From Mesorhizobium sp. WSM4904 (GTDB taxonomy: Bacteria > Pseudomonadota > Alphaproteobacteria > Rhizobiales > Rhizobiaceae), in contig NZ_CP121354.1 in the NCBI RefSeq assembly GCF_029674545.1, positions 2,861,001-2,925,000 of the forward strand: a stretch of 64,000 nucleotides of DNA, given 5' to 3'. The notes under the pieces were generated by a model. That model ran no database searches and was not told the DNA's origin. It worked only from the letters and a program-made list of their open reading frames with translations. A program made the translations under genes and the position numbers. How positions within the stretch are numbered: the stretch's first letter is position 1; each line of letters begins with the position of its first letter. Shown piece after piece: positions 37,111 through 59,834 of this stretch.

Positions 37111-37857
37111 TCAGGCGTTGGATCCGCGATCGATCGTGTAGACGGAGCCAGTAACGCTGGCTGCGCCGGGCCCAGCAAGCCAAGATACGAGCCCGGCTAT
37201 GTCCTCAGGAGTAGCAAAGCGCCCCGGCAGCGCCATCCGCGCCCGTTGATTGTCGGCGAATGCACCATCAGCAGGGTTCATTTCCGTATCTGTGGAACCT
37301 GGCTGAACGACGTTTACGGTTATGCCTTTCTGGCCGAGTTCGCGGGCGAGGGCTTTGGACATCCCAACAAGGGCGGCCTTGCTCATGGAATACAGGCTTA
37401 AGCCCGGTCGAGGCGCTCGATCAGCAAGATTGCTGCCGATTGAAATGATCCTTCCGCCCGCACGCATTTGGCGGCCAGCCGCGCGGCAAGCTAGAAAGGG
37501 AGCTCGTACGTTGATTGCAATGGTCTGCTCAAAATCCTCGAGCGTGAAGTCCTCAATTGGCCCGGTGTGCAGAATCCCAGCGTTGTTGACGAGAATGTCC
37601 AGACCTCCGAGCTTGGCGATCGTTTCGTTCACGGCAAGATCCATTGCTTCAGCGGCCAGATTGTCGGCACGGATAGCGATGGCGCGGCGGCCGATGGCCT
37701 CCATTTCCTTGACCACTTCATCGGCTTTGTCTTTGGCCGAAGTGTAAGTGATGGCGACGTTCGCACCGTCGCGCGCAAGGTGCTTCGCTATTGCGGCGCC
37801 GATGCCGCGGCTGCCTCCTGTGACCAAGGCGATCTTGCCTTCAAGTGCAGAGCTCAT
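37111..37857 (-). CDS. SDR family oxidoreductase, 3-oxoacyl-ACP reductase-like
   Basis: A 248-residue classical SDR: cofactor loop VTGGSRGIGAAIAKH (about 13-27), NNAGIL, catalytic Ser in SIGSNLAD and Tyr/Lys in YSMSKAALVG; the C-terminus TGSVYTIDRGSNA fits. The Arg of YTSAKDK region suggests NADPH use. ATG 37857 follows GGAGG at good spacing. A sigma-54 promoter with only its last base off consensus sits 36 bases upstream (37893-37908), divergent from the pnt operon, so it is expected to be expressed under enhancer control. It is probably not the housekeeping fabG, as no fab genes are nearby. Confidence 0.88.
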   Translation of the reverse strand: MSSALEGKIALVTGGSRGIGAAIAKHLARDGANVAITYTSAKDKADEVVKEMEAIGRRAIAIRADNLAAEAMDLAVNETIAKLGGLDILVNNAGILHTGPIEDFTLEDFEQTIAINVRAPFLACRAAGRQMRAGGRIISIGSNLADRAPRPGLSLYSMSKAALVGMSKALARELGQKGITVNVVQPGSTDTEMNPADGAFADNQRARMALPGRFATPEDIAGLVSWLAGPGAASVTGSVYTIDRGSNA

Positions 37858-37892
37858 CAACTAATCCTCCCGAGTGATGCCGTCATTCTCTT

Positions 37893-37908
37893 CGCAATAA
37901 CCATGCCA
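37893..37908 (-). promoter_or_regulatory. Sigma-54 promoter of SDR gene
   Basis: On the minus strand TGGCATGGTTATTGCG matches the -24/-12 consensus TGGCAYRNNNNTTGCW at all but the last base, with exact GG-to-GC spacing. Expected transcript start is near 37882, leaving a leader of about 25 bases with a good ribosome site before ATG 37857. Confidence 0.75.
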
Positions 37909-37982
37909 TTCCGCTGGCAGCCAGGGATGGCGAGAAAAACATCAACCCAAGCGCTGACCTTCACGCGCACACCGGTGCTGGC

Positions 37983-38019
37983 TGTCCTTGATAAACACAT
38001 GATGTTGCCACCGGAAACA
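37983..38019. promoter_or_regulatory. Pair of TGT-N11-ACA motifs (possible NifA-type enhancer)
   Basis: TGT-N11-ACA occurs at 37983-37999 and at 38003-38019, offset by exactly 20 bp (two helical turns). They lie about 75-110 bp from each of the two flanking sigma-54 promoters. The classical NifA site is TGT-N10-ACA; N9 to N11 variants have been discussed for Mesorhizobium. No other activator site is evident here. Confidence 0.5.
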
Positions 38020-38084
38020 CCGGGATCCTCCTGCCTGGAAACAGACGAGTAGCTGGTAGCCAGTTACTCGGCCTCCATCCTCTC

Positions 38085-38100
38085 TGGCACGGGACTTGCT
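38085..38100 (+). promoter_or_regulatory. Sigma-54 promoter of pnt operon
   Basis: TGGCACGGGACTTGCT matches TGGCAYRNNNNTTGCW at every fixed position. The -12 GC is 40 bases before the pntAA start; a transcript start near 38111 leaves a leader of about 29 bases. Confidence 0.8.
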
Positions 38101-38139
38101 ACTGAGCGCGGCAACGAACCGACAGAAAGATTAACCCGT

Positions 38140-39426
38140 TTGGCAGCGACACAAACCATATTCATCCCTCGTGAGCTTGATGCGAACGAGCCGCGTGTCG
38201 CGGCTTCGCCTGAGACGGTGAAACGGCTGGCGGGTCTGGGCTTCGAGGTGATCGTCGAGAAGGGCGCGGGCCTCGGCTCGCGCATCACCGATCAGGAGTT
38301 TGCCACGGCGGGTGCCGCGATCGGCAAGGCTGCCGACGCGTCGAAGGCCGATGTGGTGCTGAAAGTGCGCCGGCCGACCGATGCGGAGCTGAAGGGCTAC
38401 AAGTCCGGCGCGGCCGTCATCGCCATCATGGATCCCTACGGCAACGATGCGGCGGTGGCCGCGATGGCCAAGGCCGGCATCACCTCCTTCTCGATGGAGT
38501 TCATGCCGCGCATCACCCGCGCGCAGGTGATGGACGTGCTTTCCTCGCAGGCCAATCTCGCCGGCTACCAGGCGGTGATCGACGCGGCCGCCGAATATGA
38601 CCGCGCGCTGCCGATGATGATGACGGCGGCGGGCACCGTGCCGGCGGCGAAAGCCTTCATCATGGGCGTCGGCGTCGCCGGCCTGCAGGCGATCGCCACC
38701 GCGCGTCGCCTCGGCGCCGTCGTCACCGCCACAGATGTGCGCCCGGCGGTGAAGGAGCAGGTCCAGTCACTCGGCGCGAAGTTCCTCGCCGTCGAGGACG
38801 AGGAATTCAAGGCGGCCGAGACGGCCGGCGGCTACGCCAAGGAAATGTCGAAGGAATACCAGGCCAAGCAGGCGGCGCTGACCGCCGAGCACATCGCCAA
38901 GCAGGATATCGTCATCACCACGGCGCTGATTCCGGGTCGTCCGGCGCCGAAGCTGGTCTCGGCCGCCATGGTCGCCTCAATGAAACCGGGCTCGGTGATC
39001 GTCGACCTCGCGGTCGAGCGCGGCGGCAATGTCGAGGGCGCGGTGCCCGGCAAGGTCGTCACGACCGAAAACGGCGTCAAGATCGTCGGCCATCTCAACG
39101 TCCCGGGCCGCGTCGCGGCATCGGCCTCGCTGCTCTACGCCAAGAACCTCTACGCCTTCCTCGAGACGATGGTCGACAAGGCGGCGAAGCAGCTTGCCAT
39201 CAAGCGCGACGACGAGCTGGTCAAGGCGACGATGCTGACCGACGCTGGCCAGGTCGTGCATCCCAATTTCGCCAAGGCCGCCGATGCGCCGCGCACGGAG
39301 CCGGCTGCGATCCCGGCCACGATCATGGTTGCCGGCGCCGGCGACACGAAACCGGCACCCCGGAAAACCAACAACAGGAAGGCCGCGGCCAAGTCGCCCT
39401 CGTCCAAGCCAGAAGGGAGCGCGTGA
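38140..39426 (+). CDS. pntAA: NAD(P) transhydrogenase, alpha1 subunit (NAD-binding domain I)
   Basis: A 428-residue soluble subunit of the proton-translocating transhydrogenase, which moves hydride between NADH and NADP while protons cross the inner membrane. [21 protein letters not shown] is the family start; the NAD-binding fold carries [29 protein letters not shown] with the downstream RQD-type loop region. A disordered Lys/Pro/Ala tail ends the protein. It must start at TTG 38140, since conserved residues follow at once. Stop overlaps pntAB. The split alpha1/alpha2/beta layout is the alphaproteobacterial one. Expression is probably sigma-54 dependent here. Confidence 0.95.
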
Positions 39427-39848
39427 TGGAACAGCTGCAGAAAGCCCTCGACCAGCTCGATCAGGCGACGGCCGCCGTCCGCCTTGCCGTGCATGACCTC
39501 GCCAACGCGCCCGCCGGCGCCGAGGCTGCCGGCAACGCCGCACATGCGCTCTCTGGCGGCGCCATCGATCCCTTCGTCTTCCGCTTCGCCATCTTCGTGC
39601 TGGCGATCTTCGTCGGCTACTATGTCGTCTGGTCGGTGACGCCGGCGCTGCACACGCCGCTGATGGCCGTCACCAACGCCATCTCCTCGGTCATCGTCGT
39701 CGGCGCGCTGCTTGCCGTCGGCATCGCGGCTTCCGGCCTTGCCGCGGGCTTCGGCTTCATCGCCCTGGTGCTGGTTTCGGTCAACATTTTCGGCGGCTTC
39801 CTCGTCACCCAGCGCATGCTCGCCATGTACAAGAAGAAGGAAAAGTGA
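39426..39848 (+). CDS. pntAB: NAD(P) transhydrogenase, alpha2 subunit (membrane)
   Basis: A 140-residue membrane subunit with three to four helices: [39 protein letters not shown], and [20 protein letters not shown], ending [13 protein letters not shown] as usual. It forms part of the proton channel with PntB. ATG 39426 overlaps the pntAA stop by one base; GTG 39423 is the alternative. The N-terminal 40 residues form a soluble helix. Confidence 0.93.
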
Positions 39849-39849
39849 C

Positions 39850-41247
39850 GTGACCGTCAATCTCGCTTCCTTCCTCTATCTGGTCTCCGGCATCCTCTTC
39901 ATCCTGGCGCTGCGCGGCCTGTCGCACCCGACCACCAGCCGGCAGGGCAATCTCTACGGCATGATCGGCATGGGCATTGCTCTTTGCACCACGCTGGCGC
40001 TGGCGCTGCCCTCGGCGGGCCGCTTCGGCCTGATCGTGCTGGGGCTAGCCATCGGTGGCGGCGTCGGCGCCTATGTGGCGCGGCGCATCGCCATGACCTC
40101 GATGCCGCAGCTGGTCGCCGCCTTCCACTCGCTCGTCGGCTTCGCCGCCGTCATGGTGGCGGCAGCCGCCATCTACGCGCCGGAAAGCTTCGGCATCGGC
40201 ACGGCGGGCGACATCCACGCCCAGGCGCTCATCGAAATGAGCCTCGGTGTGGCCATCGGCGCCATCACCTTCACCGGCTCGGTTATCGCCTTCCTGAAGC
40301 TCGACGGCCGCATGTCCGGCAAGCCGATCATGATCGGCGGCCGCCACATGATCAACATCGCGCTGGGTGTTGCCCTGGTGGTGCTGATCGTGCTGCTGGT
40401 CACCACCGAGTCCAAGCTGGTCTTCTGGCTGATCGTCGCCGCCTCGCTGGTGCTCGGCGTGCTCCTGATTATCCCGATCGGCGGCGCCGACATGCCGGTC
40501 GTGGTGTCGATGCTGAATTCCTATTCCGGCTGGGCGGCGGCAGCGCTTGGCTTCACGCTCGGCAACTTGGCGCTGATCATCACCGGCGCGCTGGTCGGTT
40601 CGTCCGGTGCGATCCTGTCCTACATCATGTGCAAGGGCATGAACCGCTCCTTCATCTCCGTCATCCTCGGCGGTTTCGGCGGCGAAACCGCTGCCGCTGC
40701 CGACGACGGCATCGAGCGCACCGTCAAGCAGGGATCGGCCGACGACGCCGCCTACCTGATGATGAACGCGCAGAAGGTCATCATCGTGCCGGGCTACGGC
40801 ATGGCGGTCGCCCAGGCGCAGCACGCGCTGCGCGAGATGGCCGACAAGCTCAAGGCCAACGGCGTCGAGGTCAAATACGCCATCCACCCGGTCGCCGGGC
40901 GCATGCCCGGCCACATGAACGTGCTGCTCGCCGAGGCCAACGTGCCCTATGACGAGGTGTTCGAGCTCGAGGACATCAACTCCGAATTCGCGCAGGCCGA
41001 CGTCGCCTATGTCATCGGCGCCAACGACGTCACCAACCCGTCCGCGCGCGACGACAAGTCCTCGCCGATCTACGGCATGCCGATCCTCGACGTCGACAAG
41101 GCCCGCACCTGCCTCTTCGTCAAGCGCTCGCTCGGCTCCGGCTATGCCGGCATCGACAACACGCTGTTCTACAAGGACGGCACCATGATGTTGCTCGGCG
41201 ACGCCAAGAAGATGACCGAGGAAATCGTCAAGGCCATGGATCACTGA
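39850..41247 (+). CDS. pntB: NAD(P) transhydrogenase, beta subunit
   Basis: A 465-residue subunit with about nine membrane helices (residues 5-260) and the NADP-binding domain III at the C-terminus: VIIVPGYGMAVAQAQHAL, IHPVAGRMPGHMNVLLAEA, VIGANDVTNPSARDDKSSPIYGMPILDVDKA. GTG 39850 starts 1 base after the pntAB stop and gives family length; the longer open frame is accidental. 13 bases after its stop an SDR gene begins with noticeably lower GC, so an island junction may lie at about 41,250. Confidence 0.95.
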   Translation: MTVNLASFLYLVSGILFILALRGLSHPTTSRQGNLYGMIGMGIALCTTLALALPSAGRFGLIVLGLAIGGGVGAYVARRIAMTSMPQLVAAFHSLVGFAAVMVAAAAIYAPESFGIGTAGDIHAQALIEMSLGVAIGAITFTGSVIAFLKLDGRMSGKPIMIGGRHMINIALGVALVVLIVLLVTTESKLVFWLIVAASLVLGVLLIIPIGGADMPVVVSMLNSYSGWAAAALGFTLGNLALIITGALVGSSGAILSYIMCKGMNRSFISVILGGFGGETAAAADDGIERTVKQGSADDAAYLMMNAQKVIIVPGYGMAVAQAQHALREMADKLKANGVEVKYAIHPVAGRMPGHMNVLLAEANVPYDEVFELEDINSEFAQADVAYVIGANDVTNPSARDDKSSPIYGMPILDVDKARTCLFVKRSLGSGYAGIDNTLFYKDGTMMLLGDAKKMTEEIVKAMDH

Positions 41248-41260
41248 TGCTAGGTGGCTT

Positions 41261-42067
41261 TTGACTGAGTTCGCAACGACGAATAAGGCTGCCGCACCGA
41301 AGAAGGTCGCACTGGTGACGGGCGCTAGCCGAGGCATTGGCCGGGCTATCGCATTGGAACTCGCAAAGGGCGGCTTTTCTCTTTGCTTGGCTGCTCGCGA
41401 CAGTCAGTCACTCGCCGAAACACAGCAGGCTGCGACAGCACTTTCTGGCGCGCCAGCAGCTGTCACTATTGCAGATCTGAAAAAGCCTGACGCCCCGGAT
41501 CGATGCGTAGCGTTTGCATTAGGTCAGTTCGGTCAGCTCGATCTTTTGGTCAACTGCGCCGGCGACACCAGGCGAGGGGAGTTTCTGGATTTTACTTATG
41601 AGGATTGGTTGGATGGGTTCTCGTTAAAATTTTATGCGAGCGTGCTTCTGTGCCGGGCGGCGTGGCCGCATCTGGCTTCACGCGGCGGCTCTATTATCAA
41701 CATAGTAGGCTCGAGCTCTCGCACGCCAAGCGCGGATTTCACAATTGGCGGCGCGGTCAATTCGGCACTGCTGAACCTGACAAAGGCCTTGGCTGATAAG
41801 GGAAGTCGCGACGGCGTTCGAGTGAATGCGGTAAACCCGGGCTATATCAAATCGGGTAGGCTATTCGCCCGCATCGAGTCTTTGATGAGGGAGCGACAGT
41901 TAAGCGAAAGCGCCATCGAGAACGAGCTACTTGCTGGCCACCAGATCGTGCGCTTCGGGTCCCCAGAGGATGTGGCTCGGCTTGTTGCCTTTCTTGCATC
42001 CGATCAGTCAGCCTACATCCAAGGCGCCACGATTGACATCGACGGCGGCGCTGCCCGGGGAATTTAG
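41261..42067 (+). CDS. SDR family oxidoreductase
   Basis: A 268-residue classical SDR: VALVTGASRGIGRAIALELAK (about 16-36), VNCAGD, catalytic Ser in IINIVGSSSRT, while the usual Tyr position in the YxxxK motif reads FTIGGAVNSAL, so Tyr and Lys are not both visible: the enzyme may be altered or inactive. C-terminus ends YIQGATIDIDGGAARG. It begins at TTG 41261, 13 bases past pntB, and could be cotranscribed from the pnt promoter. Base composition is more AT-rich than pntB. A hairpin follows. Confidence 0.8.
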   Translation: MTEFATTNKAAAPKKVALVTGASRGIGRAIALELAKGGFSLCLAARDSQSLAETQQAATALSGAPAAVTIADLKKPDAPDRCVAFALGQFGQLDLLVNCAGDTRRGEFLDFTYEDWLDGFSLKFYASVLLCRAAWPHLASRGGSIINIVGSSSRTPSADFTIGGAVNSALLNLTKALADKGSRDGVRVNAVNPGYIKSGRLFARIESLMRERQLSESAIENELLAGHQIVRFGSPEDVARLVAFLASDQSAYIQGATIDIDGGAARGI

Positions 42068-44307: not shown

Positions 44308-44892
44308 TCAGCGAACTAGGGGAAGCGCTTCGGGCTGCTCGGTGATTACCAGATCGGAGATGGGCTCGTAGAAAGCCTCGTTGACACCTGCGATTGCAGC
44401 GTAGGCGGTGTCTGATTTTTCGACCGAAAGGCCGAGAAGGGGTGTGTGCCTGTCGAGGCCGACAGATCGGAACCATCTGGTACCGGGTCGCTCGGCATCG
44501 ATTTGGGAATGGGCATCCGTGGCATATGCTTCCGACGCGCCCTCGAAAGAAACCAGGCGCAACAACTCGCGTGGTCGCAGCTTGGGCGCCGTCACCGAAT
44601 GCCCGTTACGGGCTTCAAACAGGTCGCGGCTCCAATCGACTATATAGGGGTGCCATTCGAAGAAGCCCCAGTCGCTTGTATATTCGTTGGTGGTGAAGGC
44701 GTCCGCGGACGCGATGGTCCAGAAGGCGAGGTAGTTTCGCCCCGATCCCGAAACTCGTCGAAATCGCTGCACGGTCAGGAAGTGTGGCTTTGCCAACATC
44801 TGCCTCAGCTTCGGGCCACTATACCAGTCGTTCCAGGCGGCCTCGCGTGAGGCATCGTTGAAGTTGCAGCGTACGACATAAGCGAGATTCAT
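44308..44892 (-). CDS. EthD/DUF4286-like dimeric alpha-beta barrel protein, sigma-54 dependent
   Basis: A 194-residue protein I cannot name. The first half has the pattern NDASREAAWNDWYSGPKLRQ, then MLAKPHFLTVQRFRRVSG and NYLAFWTIASADAFTT, matching the small EthD-like protein at 60870-61181. The second half (LLRLVSFEGASEAYATD, and VNEAFYEPISDL) may be a second ferredoxin-like unit. ATG 44892 is well spaced from GAGG. A perfect sigma-54 promoter (44931-44946) sits 39 bases upstream, tying it to the activator gene next door. EthD-like proteins often accompany degradation of cyclic compounds. The 170-bp gap before it holds no clear gene. Confidence 0.7.
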   Translation of the reverse strand: MNLAYVVRCNFNDASREAAWNDWYSGPKLRQMLAKPHFLTVQRFRRVSGSGRNYLAFWTIASADAFTTNEYTSDWGFFEWHPYIVDWSRDLFEARNGHSVTAPKLRPRELLRLVSFEGASEAYATDAHSQIDAERPGTRWFRSVGLDRHTPLLGLSVEKSDTAYAAIAGVNEAFYEPISDLVITEQPEALPLVR

Positions 44893-44930
44893 ATTCATCC
44901 TCAGATAGGCCCGGCGATCTGGCCTGATCT

Positions 44931-44946
44931 TGCAACCAATGTGCCA
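44931..44946 (-). promoter_or_regulatory. Sigma-54 promoter of EthD-like gene
   Basis: On the minus strand TGGCACATTGGTTGCA matches TGGCAYRNNNNTTGCW at every fixed position with exact spacing. Transcription would begin near 44920, 28 bases before ATG 44892. A half-site GTGTC near 45014-45018 resembles the element upstream of the second promoter of this pair. Confidence 0.82.
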
Positions 44947-45077
44947 GTCAGTCTGGGCGGCTTCGGGCGGGTCGTAAAACGTCCCTCGGATATGCTTCGC
45001 TGCCTTTCTGAAGGACACGGAAGTCACTGAATGCCTGTGCTGCGGACATGGACCGCAATTCCGTGGGCTGTCTCGCA

Positions 45078-46712
45078 CTAACGGTCGACTTCACCGAGGA
45101 CCTTGTAGAGATAAGATCGTGAAATGCCGAGTTCATCGGCGACACGTTTCTTGTTCCCGCCAAAGGCTTGCATTGCTTCCCGGATAAGCGCGGTTTCGGT
45201 ACGCTCGATGGCATCCTTCAACCGCGGTAGACTGGCTCGGGGTTCCCGTTCAAGCGGCAGTTCCGAACGCGCGGCGCTCGCTTCCAGACCGCCATGTTGG
45301 ATCAATGTCTCGGTGGTGATCAGACCGTCCTCGGCAAAGATGAAGGCCCGCTCGATGACGTGACGAAGCTGGCGGACATTGCCAGGCCAAGTCCGCTCCA
45401 TCAGATAGGTGCCGGCGCTCTCGCTTATCTTCGGAACCGGTTTACGGTGAATACGCGAGAACTCGTCGAGGAAATGTGCAGTAAGCAGCTCGATGTCCTC
45501 AACACGCCTGCGAAGCGGCGGCACTTCGATAACGACAGGTGAGATCCGGTAGTAGAGATCGAGACGAAACTTCTCTTGCGAAACGAATGACTGCAAGTCC
45601 CGGTTGGTCGCCGAAACAAGGCGAAAGTCGACATGCCGCGGACGCTCGCCACCGACACGTTCAACGACCCGGTCCTGCAGGACGCGTAGCAACTTGGCCT
45701 GCACGTCGAGTGGCATGTCGCCGATCTCGTCAAGGAAGATGGTGCCGTCAGCAGCCTGTTCGAACTTACCCTTGCGACCCTTCCGGTCGGCACCGGTGAA
45801 AGCGCCGCCCTCATAACCAAAGAGTTCCGATTCAACCAGATTGGCCGGGAGCGCAGCAGCATTGACCATGACAAGCGGGTTGTCGCGGCGTGGGCTCAAG
45901 CGGTGCAGTGCATGCGCCACCAGTTCCTTGCCCGTCCCGCTCTCGCCGGAGACCAGTACCGGGACCTCCAAGGGCGCCACCTTGGTGATCTCTGTTTTAA
46001 GGCGCTGCATAGGCGCGCTTTCGCCGATCAGGTGCTCGAGGCCGAAACTGCGTCCGCGCAAGACTGCTGCTTCGCGGCGGTGGAACTCGACCTCACCCTC
46101 CAATTGACTGATGCGCTTGCTCAGCGCGGCGAGTTGCTCAGGGCCCTTGAACATGATGCGGCCGATCGCGCCGAGGGTCTTTCCATCGCGCAGGATCGGC
46201 TGTCGCGAGACCACGCGTTCAACGCCGTTCATGCGCTGGATCTCCCCGATTTCGGGGCGCCCCGACCGCACGACTGAATCCAATCTTGTGTTTTCGATGA
46301 CGCGCGCGACGGGACGACCATTGGCTTCGCCATGTCGCAGGCCAAAAAAGGCCTCATGCACGGGCGAGATGTAGACAAGACGCGCCTCGCGATCGACCAC
46401 TGTCATGGCCTCGAAAGGATCGGTCAGCAGCTTCTCGATAATGTCGTAGGCGAAGTCGACGGAGCCGATGAATTCAAGAACCGCGTTGCGGCTCGTGCTG
46501 ATGAAGATGACGTCGCCATCGGCGTACGAAGAGATGAGCGCCGAATAGTCCTTGCCGCGCAACAGGAGCGGTTGCAGCCGGCGCGTTCTCGCTTCCGCTA
46601 TCCATTCCCGGTCAGTTGCAAGGGCCCGCACCCGGGGATCGGCACCAGCGCCGCACGCAAAGACAACGCCCTTACCCGTCTGGGTAACCACAAGGCCCTC
46701 AATGCCCGACAT
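45078..46712 (-). CDS. Sigma-54-dependent transcriptional activator (PAS-AAA+-Fis)
   Basis: A 544-residue enhancer-binding protein. An N-terminal sensory part (1-90) has no close family I can name; a PAS-like domain (about 90-190, DPFEAMTVVDREARLVYISP) follows. The AAA+ domain has Walker A GESGTGKELVAHA, the sigma-54-contacting GAFTGA loop and Walker B IFLDEIGDMPLDVQ, with the arginine region RLDLYYRISPVVIEVPPLRRR. The Fis-type HTH is at the C-terminus (GGNKKRVADELGISRSYLYK). Start ATG 46712 has AGGAGGG before it; starting at 46793 would cover the inverted repeat. Divergent from the catabolic operon and flanked by two sigma-54 promoters, it is evidently their activator. The PAS ligand is probably the substrate or its CoA ester. 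Confidence 0.92.
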   Translation of the reverse strand: MSGIEGLVVTQTGKGVVFACGAGADPRVRALATDREWIAEARTRRLQPLLLRGKDYSALISSYADGDVIFISTSRNAVLEFIGSVDFAYDIIEKLLTDPFEAMTVVDREARLVYISPVHEAFFGLRHGEANGRPVARVIENTRLDSVVRSGRPEIGEIQRMNGVERVVSRQPILRDGKTLGAIGRIMFKGPEQLAALSKRISQLEGEVEFHRREAAVLRGRSFGLEHLIGESAPMQRLKTEITKVAPLEVPVLVSGESGTGKELVAHALHRLSPRRDNPLVMVNAAALPANLVESELFGYEGGAFTGADRKGRKGKFEQAADGTIFLDEIGDMPLDVQAKLLRVLQDRVVERVGGERPRHVDFRLVSATNRDLQSFVSQEKFRLDLYYRISPVVIEVPPLRRRVEDIELLTAHFLDEFSRIHRKPVPKISESAGTYLMERTWPGNVRQLRHVIERAFIFAEDGLITTETLIQHGGLEASAARSELPLEREPRASLPRLKDAIERTETALIREAMQAFGGNKKRVADELGISRSYLYKVLGEVDR

Positions 46713-46741: not shown

Positions 46742-46808
46742 GTGTCGTCAAAAAAGACACACCAGCGCGTTCCGCTGTACTGGATGAATACAATCAGACA
46801 GGGCTGAT
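46742..46808. promoter_or_regulatory. Candidate upstream activator sites
   Basis: Two inverted repeats lie between regulator and operon: GTGTC-N9-GACAC (46742-46760) and ATCAG-N6-CTGAT (46793-46808). They are about 105 and 57 bp upstream of the -24 element. Fis-type activators bind such palindromes at 80-150 bp, so the first is favoured. Confidence 0.55.
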
Positions 46809-46864: not shown

Positions 46865-46880
46865 TGGCATGCGACTTGCT
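46865..46880 (+). promoter_or_regulatory. Sigma-54 promoter of the catabolic operon
   Basis: TGGCATGCGACTTGCT matches TGGCAYRNNNNTTGCW at every fixed position with exact spacing. Predicted transcript start is about 46891, 16 bases before ATG 46908. An in-frame ATG at 46869 lies inside the promoter and cannot be the translation start. Confidence 0.85.
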
Positions 46881-46907: not shown

Positions 46908-48164
46908 ATGTCGCATGACCACATGATTGCAGGAGGCTTGCCGCTCGACCAGCTTCCCGTCGAGCAAGTAGGCAACAAGGGCTTTGACTTGCTGGAGGGG
47001 GTGCGTGTGATCGATTTGACTACGTCGATCGCTGGTCCTTATGCCGCGCAATTGCTCGCCGATTTCGGCGCCGACGTTATCAAGGTCGAGCGGCCTGGCG
47101 GCGACGACGCTCGGGCATGGGGGCCGCCCTTCCTTGACGGTGAGTCGCTTTGGTTCGAAAGCGTCAACCGAAACAAGCGCAGCCTGTGTCTGGACTATAG
47201 TCAGCCGGAAGGCGTGGCGATCTTGCGCGACCTGGCCGAGAGAGCTGATGTTATCCTGATCAACACCTCTGTACGGGTCGCCGCAAAGCTTGGCCTTGAC
47301 CAGGAAACCGTGCGTTCGTGGAACCCCCGGCTGGTCTATGTCTCAATCACCGGTTTCGGAATGACTGGGCTCCGATCTGATTTGCCCTGCTACGACCTGA
47401 TTGCAGAGGGGTATTCAGGGATCATGGACGTCACCGGCGCGGCTGACGGAGATCCGCAGAAGGTCGGCGCGCCTGCGGCCGACATGTTGGCTGGCCAGGA
47501 TGCCGCCCTCGCGGCAATCGCCGCGTTGATGAGGCGCGCCCGAACAAACGTGGGCGCAACAGTCGACATCGCATTGGTCGATTCGATGTCGCGCTTTGTC
47601 GCCTGTCGGATCGTGCCGTTCCTGGGTTCCGGCGAACTCCCCCGGCGGTCCGGCGGTAAGGACAGCGTGATTGCAATCTATCAAGCGTTTGAGACCGCCG
47701 ATGCTCCGATCACGCTTGGGCTTGGTAATAACAATATCTGGCAACGGTTCTGGGAGGCGCTCGGCAAACACGAAATCGCTGGCGACGGGCGCTTCGCCAG
47801 CAACGCGCTACGACGCGAGTGCAGGACAGAAATTGTAGCGTTGATCCAAGAGGTTCTTCTGGGCAAGCCTCGCGCCCATTGGCTGTCCCTGTTTGCCAAG
47901 GCGCGGATACCGGCCGGACCTATAAACCGTGTCGATGACCTCGTCAGCGACCACCACCTGCTCGAGCGCGGCCTGTTCTATGCCTTGCAAAGCGGCGATC
48001 GCAAAGTTCCGCAGGTTGGCATCGGCATTCAGGTCGATGGGGCGGTCAGCAGGCCGCGGCTTGGGCCACCGCTTCTCGGCGAGCATAGCGCCGAGATACT
48101 CGAAAATCTTTTGAGGTACGATCAGGAGCGCCTTACGGATTTGCGCCGCCTGAAGGTGGTCTAG
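46908..48164 (+). CDS. Class III (CaiB/BaiF) CoA-transferase
   Basis: A 418-residue family III CoA-transferase, first gene of the operon. LLEGVRVIDLTTSIAGPYAAQLLADFGADVIKVERP begins the Rossmann-like fold; the catalytic Asp is in GAPAADMLAGQDAAL (about 194). RNKRSLCLD and YVSITGFGMTG are conserved. It moves CoA from a donor thioester to a free acid. ATG 46908 has GAGGA 7 bases before it and lies correctly after the promoter; ATG 46923 is an alternative. With the AMP ligase (49007) there are two independent ways to activate acids here. Confidence 0.9.
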   Translation: MSHDHMIAGGLPLDQLPVEQVGNKGFDLLEGVRVIDLTTSIAGPYAAQLLADFGADVIKVERPGGDDARAWGPPFLDGESLWFESVNRNKRSLCLDYSQPEGVAILRDLAERADVILINTSVRVAAKLGLDQETVRSWNPRLVYVSITGFGMTGLRSDLPCYDLIAEGYSGIMDVTGAADGDPQKVGAPAADMLAGQDAALAAIAALMRRARTNVGATVDIALVDSMSRFVACRIVPFLGSGELPRRSGGKDSVIAIYQAFETADAPITLGLGNNNIWQRFWEALGKHEIAGDGRFASNALRRECRTEIVALIQEVLLGKPRAHWLSLFAKARIPAGPINRVDDLVSDHHLLERGLFYALQSGDRKVPQVGIGIQVDGAVSRPRLGPPLLGEHSAEILENLLRYDQERLTDLRRLKVV

Positions 48165-48222
48165 TCATACAAGAACAACGTCGCTCAGGCGGCAAGCTGG
48201 CAAGCAAGGGAACCAGGATTCA

Positions 48223-49002
48223 ATGAGCTACGATACAATCATTTATGAAGAAGACGGTCCGATTGGGACGCTTACGCTCAATCGTCCTGACGATGGCAAC
48301 ATGTTCAACCTGACAATGTGCCACGAAATTCGGGATTGCCTGAACGAGGTCCGCCGTGAAACGCGCACGCGCGTGATTGTGCTGACCGGCGCGGGCGACC
48401 AGTTCTTCTGCGTCGGTGGCCGCAAGGATGGTATGGAGGATAGCCTGCTTTATGCCGGCACGCTCCCCACTCTGGAGATGTACGAGACGATCGACCGGCT
48501 GCAGAAACCTGTCATTGCCTCAGTCAACGGTTTCGCGGTCGGTGGCGGCAACGTTCTGCAGATGGTTTGCGATTGTACGATCGCCAAGGAGAGTGCCGTC
48601 TTCCGCCAGGTCGGTCCGATGGTCGGATCCTTCGATGCCGGCTATGGCACCTGGTACCTGGAAGATCTGGTCGGCAAGAAGAAGGCGAAGGAAATCTGGT
48701 ACCGCAACCCGAAGATTCCGGCCCATGAAGCGCTTGAGCTCGGTTTGATCAACAAGGTGGTGCCCGACGCCGACCTCAAGGAGGAGACGCGCAAGTTTGC
48801 GCTGGAGATCGCCGAGCGTGGCTCTTTTGCGCTTGCCTCGATCAAGGCGGCCTTCAACGCTCGCCATGGCGGCGTGTCAGGCCTGTCCCGCATGGCTCAC
48901 GACCTGTTGTTGCGGGCCTATCTCGAGACGGATGAGAGTCATGAACTTGCCAGCGCCTTCACCGAGCGGCGCAAGCCCGATCCCTCCAAATTCGGGGCCT
49001 GA
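48223..49002 (+). CDS. Crotonase-family ring hydrolase/DHNA-CoA synthase-like (BadI/MenB group)
   Basis: A 259-residue crotonase-fold enzyme that clearly belongs with MenB and BadI. Signatures: VGGRKDG (oxyanion loop), VGGGNVLQMVCDCTIA, VGPMVGSFDAGYGTWYLE with the catalytic Asp of the group, KKKAKEIWYRNPK, and the C-terminal KPDPSKF. MenB makes 1,4-dihydroxynaphthoyl-CoA; BadI hydrolyses 2-ketocyclohexanecarboxyl-CoA to pimelyl-CoA. No men genes are near, so ring hydrolysis of a beta-keto alicyclic CoA ester is favoured. It is the key enzyme for interpreting the operon. Confidence 0.82.
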   Translation: MSYDTIIYEEDGPIGTLTLNRPDDGNMFNLTMCHEIRDCLNEVRRETRTRVIVLTGAGDQFFCVGGRKDGMEDSLLYAGTLPTLEMYETIDRLQKPVIASVNGFAVGGGNVLQMVCDCTIAKESAVFRQVGPMVGSFDAGYGTWYLEDLVGKKKAKEIWYRNPKIPAHEALELGLINKVVPDADLKEETRKFALEIAERGSFALASIKAAFNARHGGVSGLSRMAHDLLLRAYLETDESHELASAFTERRKPDPSKFGA

Positions 49003-49006
49003 TGCG

Positions 49007-50623
49007 ATGCGCCCATATCTGACGCTGCACCATCCTACGGTGGCGCGCGATTATTACGATGCAGGGCTTTGGCAGCCGGACACGTTCTATTCGCTGCTCC
49101 AGCGCAACGCTCGAAGGCGACCCGACGATGCGGCCCTGCAAGACGGCCGTTCCGTGCTGTCGTGGGCAGAGCTATTGGGGCGTGTCGATGGGGTCGCTGC
49201 GGATCTGAGGATCTACGGCCTTGTACCCGGTGATCGCGTCTCGATCTGGATGTCCAACAAGATTGAGGCCGTCATACTATTCCTGGCCTGCGCGCGCGAG
49301 GGCTTTGCCTGCAATCCTTCGCTTCATCGTACCTATACCTGCGCGGAAGTCGCAGGACTTCTCAATCGGCTCTCCGCGCGCGCCTTGTTAACGGAAGAAG
49401 GGTGGGGCGCGGACCGAGCGACGGCAAAGTTCGATCAGTTACTCGCCGGTGTGCGATCGCTGAAGATCGTATACACGCCGAAAAGCCTGCCGGTTGCCGC
49501 CCCGAATTTGTCGGAACCGTCCCGCGATCCAGACAAGGTCGTCTACCTTGCATTTACATCCGGCACCACAGGGGCACCCAAATGCGTCATGCATTCCGAC
49601 AACACGCTGTTGGCGAATGCGCGCGAACTCGTGCGCGACTGGGGCCAAGGGTCAGAGACGGTTGTCATGGTATTGGCTCCGCTCTCGCATCACATTGCCT
49701 GGGTGGCAGTATCCCAGTGGCTTTTGACCGGCGGGCGTTTTGTCACCGATGACCCGCCAGAGGGTATGAGCCGCCTTGACTGGATTCTGAAGACCGGCGC
49801 CACCTATGTGCTTGGGGTGCCTACGCACGCGATGGACATCCTGGCAGAGCAGCAGCAACGGGGTCTGCCACGGCTTGGAAGTGTGGCGACGTTCTATATG
49901 GCTGGATCTCCAATCCCGCCTTCCGTGGCGAGCGCTTTCCTGGCGCAGGGGGTCAAGGCACAAAACGTCTACGGCATGACCGAGAATTCATCTCATCAAT
50001 ACACGCATCCGGACGATGATGAGCTAACGATCGTCAACACCTGCGGACGAGGGGGTAACGCTTATCGGGTGCAGATCTTCGATGCAGCCGATCAGGATGT
50101 AGCTCTGCCTGCCGGCCAGATCGGTCAGATCGGCGGCAAAGGGGCTTCGCTCATGCTTGGCTATTTCGATAACCAGACGGCGACTGAAGGTAGCTTCAAC
50201 CGTGACGGCTGGTTTATGTCGGGAGACCTCGGCATCCTCGATGAGAAGGGCAATCTGCGCATAGAGGGCCGCATCAAGGACGTCATCATTCGTGGCGGCC
50301 ATAACATCTACCCGGCGCATATAGAGGCCATTGCACTGCGCCATGCTCAGGTCGATCGGGTTGCGTGTTTCCCCGTTGCCGACGTCCGGCTCGGCGAAAA
50401 GGTCTGCATCGCCGTGATCGGTACGGTCGATGCGGGTGAGCTACTCGAACACCTGGCCCGCGAAGGTCTGTCTAGGTTCGACATGCCGGAATACTTCATC
50501 AGGCTGAGCGAGTTGCCTCTGACCCCAAGCGGCAAGGTGCTCAAACGCGAACTGGTCGAACAGGTCAAGCGCGGCGAGATCGCCCCGATAGCTATTCGCT
50601 ACCAGGCGAGGACGCCAGCATGA
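49007..50623 (+). CDS. AMP-forming acyl-CoA ligase
   Basis: A 538-residue ANL-superfamily enzyme forming acyl-CoA via an acyl-adenylate. The P-loop-like motif is YLAFTSGTTGAPKCVMHS (about 179-196); A5 is VYGMTENSSHQYTHP; A7 GWFMSGDLGILDEKGNL; the hinge and lid GRIKDVIIRGGHNIYP; the catalytic Lys is in LTPSGKVLKREL. The pattern resembles cyclohexanecarboxylate and medium-chain ligases such as AliA. It starts 4 bases past the BadI-like gene's stop. Confidence 0.9.
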   Translation: MRPYLTLHHPTVARDYYDAGLWQPDTFYSLLQRNARRRPDDAALQDGRSVLSWAELLGRVDGVAADLRIYGLVPGDRVSIWMSNKIEAVILFLACAREGFACNPSLHRTYTCAEVAGLLNRLSARALLTEEGWGADRATAKFDQLLAGVRSLKIVYTPKSLPVAAPNLSEPSRDPDKVVYLAFTSGTTGAPKCVMHSDNTLLANARELVRDWGQGSETVVMVLAPLSHHIAWVAVSQWLLTGGRFVTDDPPEGMSRLDWILKTGATYVLGVPTHAMDILAEQQQRGLPRLGSVATFYMAGSPIPPSVASAFLAQGVKAQNVYGMTENSSHQYTHPDDDELTIVNTCGRGGNAYRVQIFDAADQDVALPAGQIGQIGGKGASLMLGYFDNQTATEGSFNRDGWFMSGDLGILDEKGNLRIEGRIKDVIIRGGHNIYPAHIEAIALRHAQVDRVACFPVADVRLGEKVCIAVIGTVDAGELLEHLAREGLSRFDMPEYFIRLSELPLTPSGKVLKRELVEQVKRGEIAPIAIRYQARTPA

Positions 50624-51387
50624 GTGTCACCCTTGATCGGAAGGACGATTGCGCCATCGTGACGCTAGATCGCCCGGGGAAGCTGAACGCGCTGTCATTC
50701 TCGCTGATCGCAGAGTTGGACGCCGTGTTGGACCAAGCCGCAAGCATGCCTGTGCGCGCCCTGGTCGTTACAGGTGCCGGTGAAAAGGCGTTCTGCGCAG
50801 GAGCCGACATTGAAGAGTTACGCGGGCGTAGCCAGACCGAACAGCAGCGCGGCGCAGAGCTTGGTCAGGCGGTGTTCGAGAGACTTTCACATTTTCCTGT
50901 GCCCTCGATCGCCGCAATTAAGGGTTATGCATTCGGCGGCGGGCTGGAGCTCGCCATGGCATGCACCTTCCGCATCGCCGCGCGGACGGCGCGTCTGTCG
51001 TTGCCCGAGATCAAGCTTGGCCTGATCCCGGGCTATGGGGGGACCCAGCGCTTGCCGAGGCTGGTTGGTGAGGCGCGCGCCATGGAACTCATTTTGACGG
51101 GGCGCATGGTCGATGCCGTGGAAGCCTTTCAGATCGGCCTCGTCAACCGTGTGGCTGATGGGGAGCCAGTCGCAGCGGCTATCGAATTCGCAGGGGCATT
51201 CATGCGGCATGGCCTGGTAGCGCTGCGGTTGGCGCGATCCGCAGTCGCAAGGGCGCTCGACAATCCGATCCAGGTGGGGCTCAAGATCGAGGCCGATCTG
51301 TCAACCCTCGCCTATCAGACTCGTGATTCCGAGGAGGGCATGGCTGCCTTCCTGGAGAAGCGCAAGCCGGAGTTTCGAGATGCCTGA
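50620..51387 (+). CDS. Enoyl-CoA hydratase
   Basis: A 255-residue canonical crotonase. CAGADIEEL forms the oxyanion loop, both catalytic Glu are present (YAFGGGLELAMACTFRIA and LPEIKLGLIPGYGGTQRL), and FLEKRKPEF ends the protein. It would hydrate a ring or chain 2-enoyl-CoA, as BadK does in the cyclohexane route. Overlaps the ligase stop by 4 bases and the following SDR by 8. Confidence 0.9.
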   Translation: MSVTLDRKDDCAIVTLDRPGKLNALSFSLIAELDAVLDQAASMPVRALVVTGAGEKAFCAGADIEELRGRSQTEQQRGAELGQAVFERLSHFPVPSIAAIKGYAFGGGLELAMACTFRIAARTARLSLPEIKLGLIPGYGGTQRLPRLVGEARAMELILTGRMVDAVEAFQIGLVNRVADGEPVAAAIEFAGAFMRHGLVALRLARSAVARALDNPIQVGLKIEADLSTLAYQTRDSEEGMAAFLEKRKPEFRDA

Positions 51388-52087
51388 GCAGCAGATTATC
51401 GTCACGGGCGCGAGCAAGGGCATTGGCGCCGCCATCGCTACAGACCTCGATCGGCGTGGCTTCATTGTGGCCGGTCTTTCACGCTCCGGCGAAGTGCCTG
51501 CCGGTTATGGGCTCGCATGCGACGTCTCCGATCAGCATTCGATTGCGGCCGCAGTGAACGCGGTGGCGGCCAGAGGATACATCACTGGCGTTGTGAACTG
51601 CGCCGGAGCGCACGCATCAACCCCGAGCGCGGACTTGCCGGTCGAAGACTTTGAAAGCACCATGCGCCTCAATGCGACCTCGGTGCTCGCCGTCTGCCAG
51701 CAAGCCTACCGCCATCTGGTCCGTGCCGAGACGTCGCTAGTCGTCAATATCGGCTCCTTTTACGACAAGCTCGCCGTGGCAGAGAACGTCGCTTACTGCG
51801 CCTCGAAAGCGGCGGTCGGCGCGATCACCCGTTGCCTCGCGGCGGAATGGGCCAAGGACGGGGTGCGGGTCATCAATATTGCCCCTGGATATATCGAGAC
51901 CGATCTCAACCGCGAGTTCCTTGCCAAGGACAAGATCCGGGCCTGGATCGGCAAGCGCGTACCGGTCGGACGGACCGGCAAGCCGGATGAAGTGGCCAGG
52001 CTGGTCGGCGCGCTATTTACCGAAAACATCGGCTTTTTGAGCGGCGAGACGATCTATCTGGACGGTATGCAAGGGATCAATCTGTAA
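51380..52087 (+). CDS. SDR family dehydrogenase (possible 2-hydroxyacyl-ring-CoA dehydrogenase)
   Basis: A 235-residue SDR: IIVTGASKGIGAAIATDLD, VNCAGAHA, Ser in VVNIGSFYDKL, Tyr/Lys in YCASKAAVGA; it ends SGETIYLDGMQGIN. By analogy with BadH it could oxidise a hydroxy-ring CoA ester to the beta-keto ester that the BadI-like enzyme opens. That role is inference from operon content. ATG 51380 overlaps the hydratase. Confidence 0.85.
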   Translation: MPEQQIIVTGASKGIGAAIATDLDRRGFIVAGLSRSGEVPAGYGLACDVSDQHSIAAAVNAVAARGYITGVVNCAGAHASTPSADLPVEDFESTMRLNATSVLAVCQQAYRHLVRAETSLVVNIGSFYDKLAVAENVAYCASKAAVGAITRCLAAEWAKDGVRVINIAPGYIETDLNREFLAKDKIRAWIGKRVPVGRTGKPDEVARLVGALFTENIGFLSGETIYLDGMQGINL

Positions 52088-53253
52088 TGAAGTTTCTGGA
52101 TCAACTTGAGCGCCGGCGCGGCTGGTCGTCAGACGAGCGCATGGTTCTCGACCAGGTGCGGCGGCTTTGCCAGGAATTGATTGGCCCAAGCGCCGAACAC
52201 CATGACCGGACGGGCGAGTTTCCGGCCGAAAACCTCGCTGCGCTGAACGCCCTTGGCCTGAACGCGATCTTCGTTCCGGAAGCCTATGGCGGCTCGCCGA
52301 TGTCATACCGACTCTACCTCGAAGTCGTGAAGACTATTGCGGAGGCTTGCGCGTCGACTGGCATTATCTACGCAACGAACTTCCACGGCATGAAACCTCT
52401 GGTGGACTTCGGCAGCGAAGAACAGAAAGCGAGGCTGCTGCCACGCATCGCGGAAGGTGGTATCGGCGCGCTGGCGATCACCGAAAACAGTGCCGGTTCG
52501 GATGCCACGGGCATGAAGACGCGCTTCCGGCCTGACGGTGACGAGATCGTCGTCGATGGCAACAAGCTTTTCATCACCAATGGCGATGTCGCCGACCTCA
52601 TTCTGCTGTTCGGCAAATGGAGTGAGATCGACGATGCCCGTGCAGCCATCTCGGTTCTGGTGTTTGAGAAGGGAACGCCAGGCTTTGAGGTCGTGCGGCT
52701 CGAAGACAAGATGGGGCATCGCGGTTCGTCGACGGCTGCGATCGCATTTCACGAATGCCGGGTTCCACACGCAAATCTCATAGGCAACCCCGGGGATGGG
52801 CTTCGCATCCTGCTTGCTTCACTTAACAAGTCGCGTCCCAGCATCGCGGCGCACGCGCTAGGCATTGCCCGTGCAGCGTTCTCCGATGCGGTCGCATACT
52901 CGAACCAGCGACGCCAATTCGGCCACGCCTTGCTCGAATTTCAGGGCAACCAATTCACCTTCGCCGACCTATCAACGGAACTCGCAATGACAGAGCTGTG
53001 GCTCGATTATGTCGGCCGGCTGATCGATGACGGAGAGGTCGACTTTGGGCTCGAGGCCTCCATGGCGAAAATGCGAGCCTCCGACCTTGCCATGCGTCTC
53101 AGCACCGAAGCGGTCCAAATGCACGGCGGCTACGGCTATTGCAAGGATTACCGCGTGGAGCGCCTGATGCGCGACGCCAAGATCACGCAGATCTGGGAGG
53201 GCACCAATCAACTGCATCGTCAATTGATCGGCAGGAGTCTCATCGCCAAATGA
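52087..53253 (+). CDS. Acyl-CoA dehydrogenase
   Basis: A 388-residue FAD flavoenzyme. N-terminal helices, then ALAITENSAGSDATGMKTRF and FITNGDVADLILLFGKW (flavin/substrate loops), RRQFGHALLEFQGNQFTFADL, VQMHGGYGYCKDYRVERLMRDAKITQIWEGTNQLHRQ with the catalytic Glu in EGT. It introduces a double bond into an acyl-CoA, possibly the saturated ring CoA as in AliB. The ATG overlaps the SDR stop by one base. Confidence 0.92.
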   Translation: MKFLDQLERRRGWSSDERMVLDQVRRLCQELIGPSAEHHDRTGEFPAENLAALNALGLNAIFVPEAYGGSPMSYRLYLEVVKTIAEACASTGIIYATNFHGMKPLVDFGSEEQKARLLPRIAEGGIGALAITENSAGSDATGMKTRFRPDGDEIVVDGNKLFITNGDVADLILLFGKWSEIDDARAAISVLVFEKGTPGFEVVRLEDKMGHRGSSTAAIAFHECRVPHANLIGNPGDGLRILLASLNKSRPSIAAHALGIARAAFSDAVAYSNQRRQFGHALLEFQGNQFTFADLSTELAMTELWLDYVGRLIDDGEVDFGLEASMAKMRASDLAMRLSTEAVQMHGGYGYCKDYRVERLMRDAKITQIWEGTNQLHRQLIGRSLIAK

Positions 53254-54128
53254 GCAACATAAAGACAGTAGGGGTGTGTGGCGCGGGCGGCACCATGGGG
53301 GCTGGCATCGCGATCGTGGCAGCGCGGGCGGGCTTCCGCACCATTTGCTTCGACAGGTCGGCCGAGGCACTCGACCGGTCAAGGCAGAGCACGGCCACAT
53401 TCTTCGGCAAGTCCGTGGAACGAGGCAAGATGACGACTGCGGAGCGGACTGCCATACTCGACAACATGCGCTCGACCACCGCGCTTGATGTTCTGGGTGA
53501 ATGCGACCTGGTCATAGAGGCGGTATTCGAGGACCTGGAGACTAAGCGCCAGCTGCTTGGAGCGCTCGACAGCGCATGCGGGCCGCAAACAATTTTCGCA
53601 TCAAACACCTCGACCTTGTCCATCACCGAGATTGCTGCTGGTTCCAAGCATCCGGAACGGGTGGTCGGTATGCATTTTTGCCTACCGGCACAGTTGATGA
53701 AGCTCATCGAGATGTCGCCGGGCCTGCTGACTTCGACCGAGACCTTCGCTGCTGCCTGGGATTGGACGGAGGCCTGCGGCCAGATCCCGGTCAGAACCCA
53801 AGACAAGCCGGGCTTCATCCTCAACGCACTCCTGGTGCCATTCAACAACGACGCCATCCGGGCCGTGGAAGCCGGCGTTGCATCGCCGGCAGACATCGAC
53901 AAGGCGATCAAAGCGGGCCTCGGTTACAAGATGGGGCCGCTGGAGTTGCTCGACTTGATCGGCCTCGACACGCAGATAAGGCTGTCGGAAGCCTTCTATC
54001 CCATAACGCTCGACGCACGAGCAGCGGCGCCGCCACTTCTGCGGCGGATGGTTGCCGCAGGCCTGCTCGGGCGGAAGTCGGGAAGAGGGTTCTTCAGCTA
54101 TGCCGGCGATAAGATGTTCGGAGCTTGA
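53250..54128 (+). CDS. 3-Hydroxyacyl-CoA dehydrogenase (single unit)
   Basis: A 292-residue NAD-dependent HAD. GVCGAGGTMGAGIAIVAARAG binds NAD; ASNTSTLSITEIA carries the Ser; VVGMHFCLPAQLMKLIE carries the catalytic His but with CLP in place of the usual FNP; PGFILNALLVPF has the conserved Asn. The C-terminal domain ends GRKSGRGFFSYAGD. Acts in beta-oxidation after ring opening. Overlaps the dehydrogenase stop by 4 bases and is followed by an odd HAD-like C-terminal protein. Confidence 0.9.
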   Translation: MSNIKTVGVCGAGGTMGAGIAIVAARAGFRTICFDRSAEALDRSRQSTATFFGKSVERGKMTTAERTAILDNMRSTTALDVLGECDLVIEAVFEDLETKRQLLGALDSACGPQTIFASNTSTLSITEIAAGSKHPERVVGMHFCLPAQLMKLIEMSPGLLTSTETFAAAWDWTEACGQIPVRTQDKPGFILNALLVPFNNDAIRAVEAGVASPADIDKAIKAGLGYKMGPLELLDLIGLDTQIRLSEAFYPITLDARAAAPPLLRRMVAAGLLGRKSGRGFFSYAGDKMFGA

Positions 54129-54129
54129 G

Positions 54130-54771
54130 ATGCGCTACACACTGGTAAAGAAAGGCACCAGTCCATCGTTCCCCGACGACGACCCCTTCCTGGCGGCGGC
54201 GGTTGCCGACCCGGACGCAGAGGCGGTGATCTACCTATCGGGGACCAAGCTGCAAAGCGATAGCTCGAAGTCCGCTATCCTTGTAGAGCTCGGCCTTGAA
54301 AGCCTAGGCTTCCATACAGGCGAAGCGGCGGGAGAAGAGGGCTCCAACATCCTCGGTTTCGCGCGCTATCGGAATGGGGCGGACGCGCCTTCCTCCCTCA
54401 TCGAACTCGTCACGCAGCCCAAGACTTCCCCCCAAGCCGTGACTGCTGCGCGCGCCTTGCTGGAATCGGCCGAGTTCGCCGTGATCATTTGCAGCGACCA
54501 GGCAGGGCGCATCATCGATCGATTGGTCCGGCCAAAATACAACGCGGCGCTGCGGCTGCTCGATGAAGGCCTTGCCAGCCAGAAGGATATCGATCTGACC
54601 TGTCGCCTTGGCCTCGGCTATCCCGATGGACCGATTGAACGCACGGTGCGCGGCGGTCTTGCCTATCATCACGACGTCTGCAGGGCCTTATTTGAAACCT
54701 ATGGCACCCCGGCTTTCGCGCCAGCGCGCCGTGCCGTTGTCGCTGCCCAGCGCAGGGAGGCAGGCGATTGA
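54130..54771 (+). CDS. Orphan 3-hydroxyacyl-CoA dehydrogenase C-terminal-like protein
   Basis: A 213-residue protein with the HAD C-terminal helical domain at about 130-200 (RLVRPKYNAALRLLDEGLAS, DIDLTCRLGLGYPDGPIERT) and an N-terminal part that has lost the GxGxxG NAD motif and the catalytic His segment (IYLSGTKLQSDSSKSAILV). So it is not an active HAD by itself. It could be a noncatalytic partner of 53250-54128 or a relic kept for binding. The gene is in frame, with intact overlaps to its neighbours, so it is presumably expressed. Confidence 0.7.
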   Translation: MRYTLVKKGTSPSFPDDDPFLAAAVADPDAEAVIYLSGTKLQSDSSKSAILVELGLESLGFHTGEAAGEEGSNILGFARYRNGADAPSSLIELVTQPKTSPQAVTAARALLESAEFAVIICSDQAGRIIDRLVRPKYNAALRLLDEGLASQKDIDLTCRLGLGYPDGPIERTVRGGLAYHHDVCRALFETYGTPAFAPARRAVVAAQRREAGD

Positions 54772-55895: not shown

Positions 55896-55950
55896 GGCGG
55901 TTTTGCGAACCGGACTTACCTGCGCAAAATCAACAACAGGACAACGCAAA

Positions 55951-57387: not shown

Positions 57388-57424
57388 CGACTGACATTTT
57401 TCCTAAAGCGGTGAGGTGGGGCAG

Positions 57425-59674: not shown

Positions 59675-59834
59675 TTATGCGGCTTTCCCTTTGGCGGTTC
59701 TCGTCGGCGCCGGCGTATCGTCAGGCGCTTCGGCAAATTCTACGATTGAATATCGCAAGGGTTTTGCACCTGCTGACGCGTAACGTCCGGATGTAGCGAG
59801 ACCAGACAATTCCTTGGTGACCTGCGTTTGCACG

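Follow-up and report, generated by a model that had tools for sequence, protein, structure and literature searches.

Gene content and candidate divergent promoters of the SDR-pnt block

The window, by which we mean the whole 64-kb stretch of Mesorhizobium sp. WSM4904 DNA that was analysed, contains a transhydrogenase operon and an SDR-family oxidoreductase gene in divergent orientation. The SDR gene (37111..37857, minus strand), recognised as an ORF with a model match, has a 77% identical relative that adjoins the extra pntAA of another Mesorhizobium genome, G001. pntAA (38140..39426, plus strand) starts with TTG, its product being 97% identical in amino acids to that of G000:C1:340997-342229 in the same genome (G000), and is followed on the same strand by pntAB (39423..39848) and pntB (39850..41247, start as in the ORF); all three are second copies. 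Assignment to the proton-translocating transhydrogenases comes from the NF006942 match of pntAA (420.6 against a 383-bit cut-off), the PNTB_4TM match of pntAB and the three-gene layout. TIGR00561 scored pntAA under its cut-off (374.5 versus 444.4), and pntB was recognised from its ORF by DNA homology only, the homology to the other operon ending at 41247. A second SDR gene (41261..42067, plus strand; ORF and model match) begins 13 bases past pntB and is probably part of the pnt operon. On the other side, panD and a bio operon lie downstream of the first SDR gene on the same strand, about 410 bases off (37111-36251), so that read-through from the SDR promoter into the vitamin genes is possible in this genome. 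The first-pass annotation had treated this vitamin block as a regulatory clue, which finds no support in the relative: bioB and panD had no match in the first 60 kb of the G001 contig.

Two -24/-12 elements and two palindromic boxes had been proposed for the gap between the SDR gene and pntAA, and all four are there. The promoter element of pntAA-pntAB-pntB, TGGCACGGGACTTGCT (38085..38100, plus strand), matches TGGCAY-N5-TTGCW exactly. That of the SDR gene, TGGCATGGTTATTGCG (37893..37908, minus strand), has one mismatch to this pattern and two to TGGCAC-N5-TTGCW. The GC at -12 is separated from the start codon by 42 bases for pntAA (TTG) and 38 for the SDR gene (ATG). Both sites, at 38085 and 37893, thus have the features of a sigma-54 promoter, with GG at -24, GC at -12, the right spacing and a gene close by; upstream activator boxes are provided by two TGT-N11-ACA palindromes, the second of which is weak. 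Three exact TGGCAY-N5-TTGCW sites occur on the two strands of the window against a mean of 0.12 expected from 100 dinucleotide shuffles, and none of the 100 had three. They are located at 38085 (plus), 44931 (minus) and 46865 (plus), 42, 35 and 30 bases ahead of correctly oriented start codons, and all belong to the same cluster (pnt, a 196-aa ORF and a catabolic operon). The pattern with two mismatches was not enriched (27 in the window versus 31 expected), which makes the SDR-side site weak by itself. A simple consensus scan of 37800-38200 gave no sigma-70 promoter, the alternative that the first-pass annotation had named, and simple patterns for NtrC, FixK/FNR and -35-like sites gave none in the SDR-pntAA gap. 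The genome contains two rpoN genes. A terminator-like short hairpin on the minus strand (37919-37904; 0.3 expected in shuffles) overlaps the SDR -24 element.

A local sigma-54 activator, its candidate boxes and a probable catabolic operon

About 7 kb from the SDR-pntAA boxes lies the gene for a sigma-54 activator (45078..46712, minus strand), which we propose as the regulator. Its product contains the sigma-54 interaction AAA+ domain (Sigma54_activat, PF00158, 225.9 bits), with the GAFTGA loop legible in the ORF, together with AAA_lid_14 and a Fis-type HTH (HTH_8, PF02954). PrdR was the best among the NCBIfam models displayed, under its cut-off at 380 of 795 bits. Two candidate activator boxes, TGTCGTCAAAAAAGACA (46743..46759) and TGTACTGGATGAATACA (46776..46792), both found as TGT-N11-ACA and by the matrix described below, are 33 bp apart, a spacing equal to that in G001. 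An exact -24/-12 element, TGGCATGCGACTTGCT (46865..46880, plus strand), precedes a catabolic gene run (46908..58231, plus strand) that diverges from the activator and is probably an operon, as judged from the ORFs, model matches and synteny with G001. The 196-aa ORF (44308..44898, minus strand), to which no Pfam or NCBIfam model matched, has its own exact element, TGGCACATTGGTTGCA (44931..44946, minus strand), and a 68% relative after the G001 activator; a possible degenerate box near its promoter (45001-45017) had matrix rank 6 or 17.

The catabolic run encodes a CoA-transferase, an enoyl-CoA hydratase/BadI-like protein, a ligase, an SDR, an acyl-CoA dehydrogenase, 3-hydroxyacyl-CoA dehydrogenases, a second CoA-transferase and a ChcB-like SDR. 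BadI and ChcB steps belong to the logic of the cyclohexanecarboxylate pathway. Models of such pathways (BadI, ligase, dehydrogenase, ChcB) were hit here, all under cut-off: ChcB1 was the top NCBIfam model for the SDR at 57434, BadI and cyclohexane-1-carbonyl-CoA dehydrogenase were the second-best models of their proteins and cyclohexanecarboxylate-CoA ligase the third; higher scores went to models for DHNA-CoA synthase, acryloyl-CoA reductase and a fatty-acid ligase. For a separate thiolase, 3-oxoadipyl-CoA thiolase models exceeded their cut-off. At most, it is plausible that the operon acts on a cyclic carboxylic acid. An extra TGT-N11-ACA, TGTAGCGAGACCAGACA, is found at 59792-59808 ahead of a thiolase gene, in a gap lacking a -24/-12 element.

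The two candidate boxes of the SDR-pntAA gap, box 1 TGTCCTTGATAAACACA (37983..37999) and the weaker box 2 TGTTGCCACCGGAAACA (38003..38019), are both N11 and 20 bp apart. TGT-N11-ACA occurs 10 times in the window against 5.1 expected, an excess that is modest taken alone, with at least 10 in 4 of 100 shuffles. Eight boxes, taken from seven non-Mesorhizobium lineages, went into a matrix, with an overlapping second reading in G202 left out. When the 63,984 17-mers of the window were scored with this matrix, the activator's own two boxes came first and second and box 1 third, and shuffled windows contained on average 0.07 17-mers as good as box 1. Box 2 ranked 12, a level reached by about four 17-mers in shuffled windows; with the G001 boxes and the second overlapping G202 reading added, the four boxes of the window took ranks 1 to 4, box 2 being fourth. 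Box 1 and a box ahead of the G202 activator have 15 of 17 letters in common.

The combination GCAA-N5-RTGCCA, 60-90 bases, TGT-N11-ACA had four matches in the 6.65-Mb genome, three in the SDR-pntAA gap and one upstream of the CoA-transferase operon, and its reversed form had none in the same genome; the 60-90 range was chosen after these sites were known. Across the genus, 69 of the 146 genomes contained the combination and 3 contained the reversed control. A good number of the genus matches (G062, G019, G087 and others) are members of a recurrent look-alike family of -24/-12 plus TGT-N11-ACA (GCAAGCGCCGTGCCAATTTGAAAATAG...), pointing to another conserved sigma-54 regulon in the genus, and the pattern by itself therefore cannot name the regulator. 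A pattern derived from the own genome, TGTNCTNGATNAANACA, gave two exact matches (the pnt box and the activator box) and five with one mismatch; we do not take it as proof because it was derived from those same two boxes. TGT-N13-ACA, tried as a second signal and present in 7 of 12 activator regions, was rejected because in five of the seven it is produced by the TGT-N11-ACA box itself, lengthened to TGTGT or ACACA.

These activator regions, the 250 bases 5' of the gene, were compared in 12 lineages: the own one, G001, G202, G258, G301, G388, G446, Hoeflea and the plasmid loci of Aminobacter, Celeribacter, Cupriavidus and Salipiger. G202, G258, G301, G388 and G446 were the five non-own matches among 394 family genomes, Hoeflea was the best of 80 loci, and the plasmid loci were 4 of 16 plasmid matches. 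G121 was excluded as near-identical, and Methylorubrum extorquens AM1 (L162) was dropped before the count, its match beginning at residue 121 with neither box nor promoter seen. TGT-N11-ACA is found upstream of the activator in nine lineages, all but Celeribacter, Salipiger and G446 (mean 0.75 and maximum 4 in 1000 shuffles), and TGT-N10-ACA in one. A divergent -24/-12 element with at most one mismatch is found in 11, all except Salipiger. Presence of a candidate box in 9 of 12 lineages makes the regulon searchable and its effector testable. The activator relative on Salipiger abyssi plasmid pPABY4 (L160 1903-3333), upstream of which neither box nor promoter was found, adjoins its own rpoN. 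The ten activator loci outside Mesorhizobium (20-42 kb each) contained no pntAA or pntAB match and no SDR match of at least 55%, which suggests that pnt joined the activator cluster within Mesorhizobium; for the same reason, the evidence tying pnt to the activator comes from three genomes, of which two are close.

Those genomes are G000, G121 and G001: at E values no higher than 1e-120 the activator was detected in 3 of the 146 genomes of the genus. The full SDR-pntAA gap matched in only two of the 146, the own genome and G121, and most other matching genomes did so only at the start of pntAA. In G001 the locus has diverged, with a 75% identical activator and syntenic catabolic genes. The divergent layout, which had been suggested for a search in other Mesorhizobium, recurs there although the gap DNA itself has no match: two divergent -24/-12 sites, TGGCACAGAGCTTGCG and TGGCACGCACCTTGCA, the latter the counterpart (in L072) of the SDR element, lie between pntAA and the SDR gene. 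The proposal of divergent sigma-54-type promoters with a common pair of boxes is supported for the own genome, and the divergent -24/-12 pair is retained in this relative (L072). The activator/CoA-transferase gap of G001 has two TGT-N11-ACA, and the counterpart of the 196-aa ORF has a -24/-12 site with TGT-N11-ACA. In the G001 pnt gap no TGT-N11-ACA is exact; the best candidate there, TGTCGTTGTAGCAGGCA, took rank 7 of 59,984 with the eight-box matrix, and the gap contains one exact TGT-N10-ACA. At the pnt promoter, box and -24/-12 element are thus both present in G000 and G121, and in G001 the -24/-12 element is present with a degenerate box. An element with at most one mismatch reads into pntAA in all three island copies. 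None was found on the same strand upstream of pntAA in a control set of 47, made up of 29 other loci and 11 more copies or fragments from the genus plus 7 from plasmids; one of the controls, L220, has a two-mismatch site.

Origin of the second pnt copy

That the island pnt is a second copy had escaped the first-pass annotation. The other pntAA, at 0.34 Mb, is taken as the housekeeping copy. Nucleotide homology between the two operons (96.6%) covers only the coding region (38171 to 41247, where pntB stops); it begins within the ORF in G000 and G121 and about 20 bases upstream of the ORF in G001. In a tree of 35 sequences (pntAA plus pntAB), the island copy and the other copy are sisters in each of the three genomes (100/99, 100/100 and 100/100). 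Grouping the island copies of G000 and G121 in one clade was rejected (p-AU 1e-55), as was a clade of all three island copies (p 0.0012), the tested groups having been named after a first quick tree was known. The island pntAA and pntAB are open without stops. Across 517 codons the island and other copies differ by 40 synonymous and 6 non-synonymous changes in G000 and by 27 and 4 in G121; this synonymous excess suggests that both copies were kept functional for most of their history.

From the second copy and the tree we infer gene conversion over repeated capture: the pattern suggests that the coding region was converted in each host after one old acquisition, which is the simplest history because the divergent promoter layout is common to all three island copies. 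The pnt promoter is the island's own, and the coding region, closest to the host's other copy, fits conversion host by host. An argument from a 98% likeness of island DNA between G000 and G121, against 93% for pnt, was dropped, the aligned stretch being mostly 80-95% alike, and the conversion argument therefore rests on the tree. Independent capture of the housekeeping pnt behind the same island promoter in each host would equally make each island copy sister to its host's copy, and the slightly different places at which homology begins across G000/G121 and G001 speak for it; as it needs the same insertion, the same promoter and the same SDR neighbour at least twice, we consider it unlikely, though a serious competitor. 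Under gene conversion the locus would be a natural case of an island gene that has its own promoter and a coding sequence tracking the host's copy.

The housekeeping pntAA of G000 (L061, G000:C1:342229-340997) lacks a net four residues of the conserved first N-terminal strand, where VFIPR reads as G with 12 bases gone and the frame kept. The other full-start pntAA genes examined in the genus align from residue 2-6 without this loss. Should this loss be genuine and damaging, the working copy may be the inducible one on the island. It is a long shot that the substrate-inducible island copy, kept current by gene conversion, is the only intact transhydrogenase here; a housekeeping redox enzyme would in that event have moved from constitutive to sigma-54, effector-dependent control.

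Candidate regulators and related systems

A membrane transhydrogenase forms NADPH from NADH at the expense of the proton gradient. The reading that we favour, with a probability of roughly 0.75, is that the island pnt copy is induced by the local, effector-responsive sigma-54 activator together with the catabolic pathway. On this view the SDR-pntAA gap would serve an island-borne catabolic regulon as a sigma-54 control region acting in both directions. From the sites, their positions and their conservation, as read from the sequence, we infer activator binding, inducibility, substrate and direction of flux as follows. The activator most likely binds TGT-N11-ACA palindromes, roughly TGTC-N9-GACA, both ahead of its own gene and between the SDR gene and pntAA. 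Once bound, it would open RpoN-held polymerase at four promoters, those of the CoA-transferase operon, the 196-aa ORF, the SDR gene and pntAA-pntAB-pntB-SDR. The catabolic operon may act on a cyclic carboxylic acid; NADH should come from the 3-hydroxyacyl-CoA and SDR dehydrogenases that it encodes, and the pnt enzyme would convert that NADH to NADPH, spending the proton gradient. If true, a core redox enzyme has been recruited into a mobile catabolic regulon, with NADPH supply matched to the NADH output of the pathway.

The first-pass annotation had instead suggested NifA, which with RpoN (perhaps RpoN2) would drive the SDR gene and pnt in microaerobic cells or bacteroids. The genome does have nifH (1.298 Mb) and two rpoN genes, the second of which (1.283 Mb) is about 13 kb from nifH, and the NifA site, TGT-N10-ACA (PMC4999443), resembles the TGT...ACA boxes. 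Those boxes, however, are N11 in G000 and G121, and 37861-38139 contains no TGT-N10-ACA. Upstream of the own nifH is TGTCGTGTCCGTGACA, an N10 site, with no N11 within the same 520 bases; among the four nifH loci of these genomes, three have N10 upstream and none has N11. The window spans 2.861-2.925 Mb, which places the block 1.56 Mb away from nifH; with nifH and the second rpoN about 1.6 Mb off, it is not adjacent to nif. A better-matching activator is encoded locally. The exact TGT-N10-ACA in the G001 pnt gap, where N11 is only degenerate, would fit NifA or cross-binding, and the NifA-dependent induction of the transhydrogenase cluster azo1003-1005 in Azoarcus BH72 (PMC3916325) also speaks for NifA; against it, the paper on the NifA regulon of M. 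loti (PMC3538637) uses neither 'pnt' nor 'transhydrogenase' in its main text. NifA or bacteroid control is left unsupported by N11 in place of N10, by the resemblance of the boxes to the local activator's sites and by the distance to nif; NifA is probably the wrong regulator of pnt, and we regard its control of the block as improbable.

It is quite improbable that the sigma-54 promoters are driven by another, or several, of the genome's activators. The genus has the other frequent promoter-plus-box family described above, and Fis-type activators often have similar palindromes; yet box 1 fits the local activator's boxes in detail, and no third genome site carries the promoter-plus-box pair as defined by the pattern used. 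The -24/-12 elements could also be relics or chance matches, with pnt read from some other promoter, and for this the mismatch on the SDR side and the unenriched two-mismatch pattern may be cited. The three exact sites where 0.12 were expected, and the recurrence of the sites in a relative despite the loss of any DNA match across the gap, make this very remote.

Induction of pnt by the local activator, as we favour it, would combine parts of known kinds. The NifA-RpoN regulon of M. loti R7A likewise has -24/-12 promoters with upstream boxes on island DNA (PMC3538637); unlike that regulon, the pnt locus has N11 boxes, a local activator and no nif nearby. Catabolic activators of the PrdR/PrpR/AtoC type have an AAA+ domain and a Fis-type HTH and are divergent from catabolic genes, as here, but the present activator is under the cut-off of the NCBIfam models displayed. 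The closest precedent is the NifA-dependent transhydrogenase cluster of Azoarcus BH72 (PMC3916325), where azo1003-azo1005 are in the wider regulon of a sigma-54 activator; that case is a microarray effect, with no promoter or box named for it in the passages on the cluster, and not a second copy in a catabolic cluster. It adds a caveat to the earlier statement that no such control had been described for pnt. Searches of the open PMC literature gave no earlier case that combines an island transhydrogenase in a regulon of this kind with coding DNA that tracks the host. Among related reports, an RpoN-type motif precedes sthA, for a soluble transhydrogenase, in Bradyrhizobium DOA9 (PMC13207237), pntA is tabulated for another sigma factor (PMC5493296), and pntAA is named, in the text available, only for a transposon insertion (PMC9045368).

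Extra pnt operons on alphaproteobacterial plasmids are also on accessory DNA, several beside catabolic genes; unlike the island pnt, none of seven (from the 7 of 56 plasmid records examined) has a -24/-12 element reading into pntAA. As for the island itself, a tyrosine integrase gene overlaps a tRNA-Met at its end (16559-17818), as at the end of an integrated island. DNA of the integrase end is found again, in the same orientation, at 3,052,179 and 3,130,470, and 17 bases of the tRNA end are found, as a weak match, at 3,186,254; these recurring ends are a lead towards a tandem array of islands.
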